Origin: Flavobacteriaceae bacterium
Lineage (GTDB): Bacteria; Bacteroidota; Bacteroidia; Flavobacteriales; Flavobacteriaceae
Assembly: GCA_016649715.1 (NCBI GenBank)
Contig: JAENXC010000004.1
Span: 62,001 to 126,000, forward strand
Reading direction: 5' to 3'
Length of the DNA stretch: 64,000 bases
The notes beneath the pieces are model-generated. The model did not search any database and was not told the origin of the DNA. It saw only the letters and a list, made by a program, of their open reading frames with translations. Both the position numbers and the translations under genes were made by a program. How positions within the stretch are numbered: position 1 is the first letter of the stretch; each line of letters begins with the position of its first letter. Positions 51,025 through 51,545 of the stretch are shown in pieces.

Positions 51025-51073
51025 GGTCGCGTAGCTCAGCTGGATAGAGCATCCCGATTTCCAATCGGGACGT
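51025..51073 (+). pseudogene. Truncated tRNA-Arg-like copy (5' half only)
   Basis: GGTCGCGTAGCTCAGCTGGA then TAGAGC and the full anticodon arm TCCCGATTTCCAATCGGGA are present. The sequence departs from tRNA after CG: there is no T-arm and no 3' acceptor strand. The loop TTTCCAA would give anticodon TCC, unlike the TCT in the other two copies. It cannot form a functional tRNA. Confidence 0.8.
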
Positions 51074-51102
51074 TCACAGGGGAGTTAAAATAAAATAATA
51101 AT

Positions 51103-51176
51103 GGTCGCATAGCTCAGCTGGATAGAGCACCTGCCTTCTAAGCAGGCGGTCGAAGGTTCGAATCCTTCTGCGATCA
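51103..51176 (+). tRNA. tRNA-Arg (TCT), intact
   Basis: The acceptor GGTCGCA pairs with TGCGATC (one G-T pair). The D-arm is GCTCAGCTGGATAGAGC. The anticodon arm CCTGC CTTCTAA GCAGG gives TCT, and the T-arm GAAGG TTCGAAT CCTTC is perfect. It is the only complete copy of the three arginine-type copies here and is presumably the working gene. Confidence 0.93.
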
Positions 51177-51181
51177 CAGAT

Positions 51182-51205
51182 AATCCCCTACTAAGGGGAT
51201 TTTTT
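51182..51205 (+). terminator. Terminator of tRNA-Arg, abutting the GIY-YIG gene
   Basis: AATCCCCT/AGGGGATT with an ACTA loop and TTTTTT. The GIY-YIG start codon begins only three bases after it, so that gene seems to have no leader of its own. Confidence 0.85.
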
Positions 51206-51207
51206 GT

Positions 51208-51462
51208 ATGAAATATTTAGTATATATATTGTATTCAAAGGAACTGGACAGATATTATATTGGCCATACAGGAGAGACAATCGCAGAACGTCTAAGAAAA
51301 CATCTTTCTAATCATTCTGGTTATACTTCAAAAGCCAAGGATTGGGAATTAAAATACACTGAAGAATATCCTTCCAAAAAAGATGCGTACGCACGAGAGT
51401 TGGATATCAAAAGAAAAAAATCCATTAAATTTATTCAAAATCTCATTAGCTCAGCTGGATAG
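51208..51462 (+). CDS. GIY-YIG endonuclease-domain protein ending inside a tRNA copy
   Basis: An 84-residue GIY-YIG protein. The first strand and signature are KYLVYILYSKELDRYYIG (residues 2-19). The catalytic arginine lies in AERLRKH (residues 26-32), and the metal-binding glutamate in DAYARELDIKRKKS (E64). Small stand-alone GIY-YIG proteins of this size are very common in Bacteroidota and are related to UvrC/homing-endonuclease domains, but none has a proven role. The last codons (AGC TCA GCT GGA TAG, residues SSAG and stop) lie in the D-arm of a tRNA-Arg copy. The start is three bases past the terminator of an intact tRNA-Arg. The placement suggests insertion into a tRNA gene. Confidence 0.82.
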   Translation: MKYLVYILYSKELDRYYIGHTGETIAERLRKHLSNHSGYTSKAKDWELKYTEEYPSKKDAYARELDIKRKKSIKFIQNLISSAG

Positions 51463-51515
51463 AGCATCCCGATTTCTAATCGGGACGGTCGAAGGTTCGA
51501 ATCCTGCTGCGATCA
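51447..51515 (+). pseudogene. tRNA-Arg (TCT) copy lacking the 5' acceptor strand
   Basis: TAGCTCAGCTGGATAGAGC, the anticodon arm TCCCGATTTCTAATCGGGA (loop gives TCT) and TGCGATCA at the 3' end are all tRNA-Arg. The seven bases before it (ATCTCAT) do not pair with TGCGATC; they are GIY-YIG codons instead. The T-stem GAAGG/CCTGC has one mismatch, as if two versions had been joined. It looks like the 3' part of a disrupted tRNA. Confidence 0.82.
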
Positions 51516-51520
51516 CTTTG

Positions 51521-51545
51521 AATCCTCATTTTTTGGGGATTTTTG
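51521..51545 (+). terminator. Terminator after the disrupted tRNA-Arg copy
   Basis: AATCCTC...GGGGATTTTTG is a weaker version of the hairpin after the intact tRNA-Arg copy (both begin AATCC and end GGGGATTTTT). This supports a duplication of the tRNA-plus-terminator unit. Confidence 0.65.

Follow-up and report, generated by a model that had tools for sequence, protein, structure and literature searches.

The locus described here raises the question of how a small nuclease gene came to lie between copies of an arginine tRNA gene, and whether it belongs to a mobile system that uses tRNA genes as its sites. It is located in the window, i.e., the whole stretch of 64,000 nucleotides that was analyzed, which originates from a Flavobacteriaceae bacterium (GenBank assembly GCA_016649715.1, contig JAENXC010000004.1, positions 62,001 to 126,000); the congeners of this genome, where named, belong to the genus Aequorivita (Flavobacteriaceae). 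The arrangement of tRNA copies and a GIY-YIG gene was present at positions 51,025–51,545 of the + strand. Starting from position 50,765, a tRNA-Ser gene is followed on this strand by tRNA-Pro, a 5' fragment of tRNA-Arg, an intact tRNA-Arg(TCT), a terminator-like hairpin, the GIY-YIG gene, and a 3' fragment of tRNA-Arg (Table 1). The initial annotation, made from the sequence alone, was borne out in describing an intact tRNA with its terminator, a nuclease gene starting right after it, and a third tRNA copy that serves as coding sequence: the open reading frame (ORF) ends with ISSAG, the residues SSAG and the stop codon TAG being encoded by the D-arm of that copy.

Table 1. Features of the tRNA-Arg/GIY-YIG locus (positions in the window).
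Feature	Position	Strand	Basis or remark
tRNA-Pro(TGG)	50910..50985	+	Neighbour anchoring the locus in congeners; ARAGORN
5' pseudo-tRNA-Arg, allele N	51025..51081	+	Acceptor 5' strand, D-arm, hairpin for anticodon arm, start of T-arm
TCCCGA..TCGGGA palindrome in 5' pseudo-tRNA, anticodon-arm position	51052..51070		Mean of 0.01 per shuffled window
Intact tRNA-Arg(TCT), allele E	51103..51177	+	ARAGORN; Rfam, 71.8 bits
Terminator-like hairpin and T run, between tRNA and nuclease gene	about 51182..51205	+	Closer to E loci
GIY-YIG nuclease gene, 84 aa	51208..51462	+	ATG at 51208; stop codon inside the next D-arm
3' pseudo-tRNA-Arg, allele E, without 5' acceptor strand	about 51440..51516	+	ARAGORN, Rfam, allele scores
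TCCCGA..TCGGGA palindrome in 3' pseudo-tRNA, anticodon-arm position	51467..51485		Shuffle-tested pattern
Trailer with second terminator	51517..51585	+	Best score to an N locus

In a repeat comparison, 73 nt of copies 2 and 3 with their trailers aligned at 75% identity, and 49 nt of copies 1 and 3 at 92%. The assumption that the 5' and the 3' piece together make up one full tRNA turned out to be wrong, since both pieces hold a D-arm and an anticodon arm and differ in allele (N versus E, see below). The third copy passes both ARAGORN and Rfam (32.7 bits versus a gathering score of 29), so that an annotation would list two tRNA-Arg genes here. ORFs of at least 60 aa touching positions 51,025–51,545 are limited to the nuclease and an overlapping out-of-frame ORF (51,383–51,619), with no integrase gene among them, and no intron was detected by Rfam between positions 50,700 and 51,700.

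The encoded protein matched PF01541 (E 2.3e-15; 57.1 bits versus a curated cut-off of 22.6). Residues Y6, Y17, G19, R28, and E64 were invariant in all 16 rows of the alignment, among which are the GIY/YIG tyrosines, the arginine, and the catalytic glutamate known from I-TevI and UvrC. The structure model (pLDDT 84) represents a bare GIY-YIG fold, and no second or separate DNA-binding domain was seen in the model of this 84-aa protein. Its nearest fold neighbours were UPF0213 (1zg2 being the best), followed by Slx1, with UvrC and I-TevI ranking lower. NCBIfam yielded no match, and PHROGs and PADLOC yielded weak ones only. A search of 50,697 phage and 72,556 plasmid records with the window protein, as well as two single-protein queries of viral contigs (IMG/VR), returned no match at a sensitivity that distant relatives would escape; a phage or plasmid origin was dropped as an explanation on this basis.

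The same genome harbors a second unit at tRNA-Phe, consisting of an intact tRNA, a terminator, a nuclease gene, and a 3' piece of tRNA-Phe bearing a CCCCGACGCTTCGGGG hairpin in its T-arm. In total, 11 GIY-YIG matches were obtained for the window genome, two of them at tRNAs and the other nine without a called tRNA in the fetched stretch. Profile A1, comprising 16 relatives, matched 182 out of 299 Flavobacteriaceae genomes and 160 out of 296 genomes drawn across the phylum at E 1e-12 or better, a threshold that also admits small GIY-YIG genes away from tRNAs (only two of the five matches in genome G000 are units); at E 1e-20 or better, 82 of the 299 Flavobacteriaceae genomes were matched.

To evaluate the surroundings of such genes, a non-random sample of 97 loci was considered, of which 57 represent the best match per genome of the top-ranked genomes (set A, from whose 58 loci that of the window was omitted) and 40 were picked by hand from the low end of the match lists, with their tRNAs then unseen and tandem copies somewhat favoured (set B). 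A same-strand tRNA was called within 250 bp at 83 of these 97 loci (64 in front of the gene, 19 behind it), where calling refers to ARAGORN, which accepts some pseudo-tRNAs too, and where a few loci with tRNA-Pro behind were labelled by a more distant tRNA-Ser in front. The chance of finding a tRNA in this range is about 0.3%, as we estimate from approximately 45 tRNA genes per 3.4 Mb. On a wider reading, five of the remaining 14 loci also featured a tRNA or tmRNA: a tRNA was called at three (L109, L121, and L155), a tRNA-Asn running into the contig end was recognized by eye at L132, and at L257 (L323:3536-4140, G579:C7) a complete tmRNA ends approximately 15 bp before the unit and a broken copy of the tmRNA 3' end follows it. 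At this one locus, ssrA is thus also used by the family. Eight loci showed tRNA fragments only, which were recognized by eye and left unscored (L119, L122, L141, L159, L226, L255, L256, and L232), and one at a contig end (L246) was undecided. Relatives of the gene without an adjoining tRNA, which would have made the association accidental, were sought, and in this sample 96 of the 97 loci lay at tRNA genes or fragments of them.

Among another set of 37 loci, 34 had a called tRNA in range, the other three beginning at a contig end or following a tRNA 3' half. For the congeners, a tRNA was called within 250 bp at 15 out of 24 loci; of the other nine, four are stretches of Arg and Val arrays (L013, L015, L023, and L026), two start at a contig end (L018 and L019), two lie 2 kb past a tRNA-Met (L033 and L034, cf. 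L035), and one has tRNA-like pieces on both sides as judged by eye (L025). The isotypes found at units include Val, Arg, Ala, Phe, Asp, Asn, Pro, Ser, Met, Thr, and Gly, and two mirror layouts occur, namely tRNA–nuclease–3' fragment and 5' fragment–nuclease–tRNA. Two units located before tRNA-Glu, with CCCCGATTCCATCGGGG in their pseudo-tRNAs, were found in a Candidatus Saganbacteria metagenome-assembled genome, so that the association extends beyond the Bacteroidota, provided that this bin is clean. Two tandem 84-aa GIY-YIG genes in another genome (L270 and L287, G012:C11:80570-81126; 356 bp apart, profile E 2e-17) had no tRNA called nearby and possibly represent a unit at another kind of site.

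As a control, 37 PF01541 loci from the window genome and relatives of its order were inspected, eight of which were not matched by profile A1. No tRNA was called in the stretch (mostly 1.5 kb on either side) at 34 of them; the three exceptions comprised two strong family members (profile E 4e-33 and 7e-34) and one gene at tRNA-His (E 1e-17). Outside the strong family members, therefore, one of 35 GIY-YIG loci lay near a tRNA, which indicates that tRNA proximity belongs to this family and not to GIY-YIG genes in general.

In a tree of 133 proteins, 35 isotype changes were counted among 115 labelled rows, as compared to a mean of 77.9 (range 72–83) in 200 shuffles, and nine changes of layout versus a shuffle mean of 22.3. 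This tree is based on 84 columns, 69 of its 130 inner branches are weak, and some of its isotype labels come from pseudo-tRNAs (the Gln label of L026 resembles a Val fragment). Since shared descent at one locus would give the same signal, the tree indicates faithfulness to a tRNA and not specificity of cutting.

The initial annotation had called for empty-site counterparts, and these were found: within the genus, both empty and occupied alleles of one and the same site were seen for Arg, Val, and Phe. A unit was present in 6 out of 26 Val loci and in 6 out of 25 Phe loci (one more Phe locus gave no tRNA call). On a tree of 24 genomes built from a methyltransferase gene close by (11 of its 21 inner branches being weak), which was taken because the upstream gene offered nine usable rows only, presence changed three times for the Arg, four times for the Val, and six times for the Phe unit.

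Two pairs of Phe units show recent transfer that is independent of the species background, as judged from sequence identities. The Phe nucleases of G012 and G023 share 96.9% identity over 288 nt, as compared to 74.1% for the methyltransferase gene and 75.0% for the flank before tRNA-Phe; those of G020 and G021 share 91.1%, the two comparison regions (methyltransferase gene and flank) showing 76.8% and 78.9%. Such transfer was seen in only 2 of 15 Phe pairs. For the 13 remaining Phe pairs, all 10 Val pairs, and nine between-genome Arg comparisons, the excess of unit over background was at most approximately six percentage points, i.e., Val and Arg units largely track the genome background. When the filled site of G023 is compared with the empty one of G026, identity amounts to 66–83% between 700 and 50 bp ahead of the tRNA, rises to 100% within the tRNA itself, and stays at 84–100% on its right, which places the breakpoint at the tRNA, with a long right-hand tract (over 800 bp); the right-hand tract of G020 and G021 is also long (80–98%). 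In G012, the terminator before the Phe nuclease is foreign (nearest to G014, 28/36), and the one after it matches those of its relatives G002 and G026 (36/36), a pattern that the copying of a unit into a tRNA gene would be predicted to leave. The Phe unit of G000 likewise has two unlike terminators, nearest to G014 and G019, while in four of the six Phe carriers both terminators are alike and no mosaic is visible. No nuclease-gene pairs of at least 84% DNA identity were present outside Flavobacterium in the tree set, which thus gave no sign of transfer between genera, and for the flanks of the Flavobacterium Ala group, discordance runs both ways and was not taken as proof.

Two alleles of tRNA-Arg(TCT) occur among the congeners, N in 16 genomes and E in nine, with three genomes unassigned; they were told apart by the anticodon arm, and their acceptor and T stems differ too. 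All four carriers of the Arg unit with an assigned allele have E, versus 5 of 21 non-carriers, two of which possess a decayed 5' piece (L094 and L096); no probability is claimed for this association, because related genomes are not independent. The parts of the window locus were scored against both alleles. The leader gave the same best score for each (22), and the 5' piece was closer to N in its acceptor strand and D-arm (25/25 versus 23 for E) and in its T part (8/11 versus 7). For the intact tRNA, the T-arm and acceptor scored 28/28 for E and 19 for N; the first terminator (26/28 versus 21) and the 3' piece (28/30 versus 22) were likewise closer to E. The score of the trailer (38/70 for N, 18 for E) reflects the neighbourhood rather than the allele, as a different gene follows at most of the E loci compared. 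By these scores, two alleles are combined in the window locus as a mosaic. Most simply, this reads as the interruption of an N tRNA that was resident there and the arrival of an E tRNA together with terminator, nuclease gene, and pseudo-tRNA. The suggestion that such a unit brings its own replacement tRNA fits the Arg locus, where the intact tRNA and the first terminator differ in allele from the 5' remnant; it fails as a rule, since the Val tRNA is the same in 6 carriers and in 20 loci without a recognizable nuclease. Immunity through a recoded tRNA, an idea prompted by the Arg alleles, was discarded as a general explanation on account of these identical Val tRNAs.

In both pieces of the window, the anticodon arm is replaced by a hairpin, TCCCGATTTCCAATCGGGA (51,052–51,070) and TCCCGATTTCTAATCGGGA (51,467–51,485). 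The pattern TCCCGAN{2,12}TCGGGA was matched three times in the window, as compared to a shuffle mean of 0.01. Across the family, CCCGA..TCGGG was found in the fragment of 79 out of 138 units with the tRNA in front (62 of 95 loci), versus 4 of 1168 random stretches; 6 of 43 units with the tRNA behind have it, many others featuring different hairpins, e.g., GTCACGC..GCGTGAC in Pro units. The arm concerned depends on the isotype: mostly, the anticodon arm is taken by the CCCGA..TCGGG hairpin and the T-arm is kept in Val (19/30) and Ala (16/30) units, and the T-arm motif is lost in Phe (7/7) and Asp (14/16) units. We infer that the swap of an arm corresponds to the loss of a cut site. Concerning resistance of the occupied allele, the fragments have swapped arms, yet the intact Val tRNA is unchanged.

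The TCCCGA..TCGGGA palindrome is scattered over 24 places in G000 (reversed-pattern control: 0), 22 of them other than those of the unit, so that the hairpin may belong to a dispersed repeat and not to the unit. None of 21 dispersed copies that were read lay within a called tRNA, one being approximately 30 bp from tRNA-Trp. The view that the hairpin is a private mark of the unit is weakened accordingly, although the palindrome is still enriched at units; it is possible that the scattered copies constitute a REP-like repeat. At L029:2821-3054, one pseudo-tRNA-Val contains a 24-nt sequence, CCCGAAGCAAGTTCGGGACAGGTT or a close variant of it, repeated seven times head to tail and once more past a short gap, as if the hairpin itself were multiplying.

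Tandem arrays are built of units of approximately 310–380 bp, and in the largest (L318), a single tRNA-Phe is followed by eight nuclease stretches, of which two are partial. Copies bearing stop codons were found within arrays, and remnants of units lie behind native tRNAs (L081, L204, L172, and L173). At L022:323-1268 (G005), eleven tandem 86-bp pseudo-tRNA-Pro copies with the TCCCGA hairpin directly precede an intact tRNA-Pro, with no nuclease gene between them, and shorter pseudo-tRNA arrays are located ahead of tRNA-Ala (L044, L050, and L057). In Aequorivita capsosiphonis, two unlike nuclease units follow a tRNA-Arg 3' half (L037:2421-3160); an intact tRNA-Arg lies approximately 7 kb from this half on the same strand (G004), as if the locus had been split by another element.

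We consider it likely that the unit is a chromosomal tRNA-gene homing unit, i.e., a free-standing, single-domain GIY-YIG gene residing at tRNA genes (once at a tmRNA gene) and spreading by recombination through tRNA sequence. According to this proposal, the gene would be expressed at a low level by read-through of the tRNA terminator, which often ends just before the ATG. The nuclease would then cut a tRNA gene that has the same isotype and lacks a unit, the probable cut site being the anticodon arm (Val, Arg, and Ala lineages) or the T-arm (Phe, Asp, and Pro lineages), and repair would copy the unit in. As one junction falls within the tRNA, an intact tRNA would be restored, and the other junction would leave a tRNA fragment past the gene; the junctions and mosaics were observed, and their origin by cutting and repair is presumed. 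The leftover fragments swap the presumed cut-site arm for a hairpin, possibly because the swap removes the cut site, and would offer homology for the tandem amplification seen in the arrays. Units decay and get lost, as evident from the remnants and the patchy distribution, and the emptied site may be invaded again. In the window, little of a resident N-type tRNA-Arg appears to be left, its place having been taken by an E-type tRNA, terminator, nuclease gene, and pseudo-tRNA. Several findings count against homing. Next to the gene, the intact tRNA is the same as in empty loci at Val and shows no consistent change at Phe, and should therefore be cut too; the small protein has no separate DNA-binding domain with which to find a tRNA gene; recent transfer was limited to 2 of 15 Phe pairs; the terminator mosaic is absent from four of six Phe carriers; and the hairpin is dispersed in the genome.

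The same loci could also be explained without any cutting. tRNA genes recombine often and collect DNA as integrase targets, and the nuclease gene might be a passive passenger of such a recombination hotspot that spreads by ordinary homologous recombination. Ordinary recombination would equally give long right-hand tracts, such as those of the Phe pairs; units at Val and Arg diverge largely in step with their genome background, and some unit tRNAs are split in the manner of integrase elements, the 3' half being kept with the unit and no 5' half lying nearby. We nevertheless regard this explanation as unlikely. The array units have space for the nuclease gene alone, other GIY-YIG genes in the same genomes do not gather at tRNAs, and a neutral gene would not hold its five invariant residues or a dN/dS of 0.07. 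The latter value is the median for the Ala group (86 usable pairs out of 146 with at least 70% identity; other groups had one usable pair or none), in which the nuclease gene is under purifying selection.

This selection would also suit a nuclease serving its host in tRNA processing, in quality control, or in guarding tRNA genes from integrating elements, and so would the tight packing with tRNAs; by a simple rule, 66 of 92 loci have a terminator-like hairpin that separates the tRNA from the nuclease gene. A host function is quite improbable, however, for a gene without a match in 18 of 28 congeners (window protein, E 1e-8) and with a patchy distribution at Val and Phe, which uses many tRNAs on either side and occurs in tandem copies with stop codons. 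A system acting on RNA, with the cognate tRNA as the substrate cleaved by the protein and with either the pseudo-tRNAs or a variant tRNA as the antidote, would account for the E allele of all assigned Arg carriers, and the tandem pseudo-tRNAs resemble repeat-RNA antitoxins. At Val and Phe, though, the tRNA of carriers is not consistently different from that of non-carriers, the 3' pseudo-tRNAs lack a 5' strand, and by fold the protein is closest to UPF0213 and the DNA nuclease Slx1; a toxin-antidote role is very improbable. Homing into tRNA genes is the reading that we prefer.

Integrative elements at tRNA attachment sites are known to restore the tRNA at one junction and to leave a fragment at the other. 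The units share this restored tRNA and fragment with them, but contain no integrase, their fragments reach the D-arm, and arms are swapped. Slx1, the second-best match by both sequence and fold, is a structure-specific GIY-YIG nuclease that cuts branched DNA; it is eukaryotic, works with the partner Slx4, and is not known to be mobile. By analogy, its activity hints at a hairpin-directed enzyme, and the unit nuclease could possibly recognize tRNA-like hairpins in DNA by their structure. UPF0213 and small GIY-YIG proteins (PDB 1zg2 and 1ywl) are of similar size and represent the best PDB sequence matches; unlike the units, the remaining small GIY-YIG genes in these genomes show no linkage to tRNAs, one exception aside. 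Group I introns in bacterial tRNA genes are mobile as well, some of them with homing endonucleases (PMC3984707). By comparison, the mature tRNA is uninterrupted in the unit, which lies beside it.

The nearest precedent is SegB of T-even phages, a free-standing GIY-YIG homing endonuclease whose gene also lies among tRNA genes; in T4, it follows tRNA-Ile at a distance of 41 bp and precedes tRNA-Arg by 5 bp. Its cleavage was reported to peak within tRNA genes, with the motif RAWTSGAAC at 23 of 83 sites, and tandem amplification of a tRNA and a truncated segB was described (PMC13096335); elsewhere, its target was given as the tRNA intergenic region (PMC2988022). In our reading, the reverse complement of the motif, GTTCSAWTY, looks like a tRNA T-arm. 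SegB differs in its phage genomes, its length (221 aa), and in that no isotype preference is reported in the passages cited, whereas the present units reside at chromosomal tRNA genes and leave hairpin-swapped pseudo-tRNAs. An alignment of the profile to SegB (hhalign) revealed no sequence tie, with a probability of 3% over 24 columns only, and membership in the SegB family was rejected, as there is no similarity beyond the GIY-YIG core.

In the literature searched, which included few subscription papers, no description of such units in bacterial chromosomes was found. The proposal of a GIY-YIG/tRNA unit inserted at a tRNA gene, forming an undescribed mobile system, is strongly supported by the empty sites in congeners, the sampled relatives at tRNA genes, and the movement of the Phe unit between species. 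The units form a large, apparently undescribed family across the Bacteroidota that seems to pass from species to species, and they are a candidate for a new kind of selfish DNA in essential genes. We are inclined, with some reserve, to regard them as a new class of mobile elements, in which nuclease units of approximately 0.3–0.4 kb, of largely isotype-faithful lineages, exploit tRNA and tmRNA genes, are common in the Flavobacteriaceae, occur in at least one candidate phylum outside the Bacteroidota, and, in spreading, rewrite essential tRNA loci by imported alleles, pseudo-tRNA arrays, and swapped arms. Few sequences are as conserved and as essential as tRNA genes, so that an element targeting them always finds a host. 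The units can produce false tRNA annotations. If homing through tRNA homology holds true, it would provide a mechanism for the duplication of tRNA genes, the replacement of their alleles, and the formation of pseudo-tRNA arrays; the family would supply very small natural nucleases that are specific for tRNA genes, and part of the abundance of small GIY-YIG proteins in the Bacteroidota would be explained.
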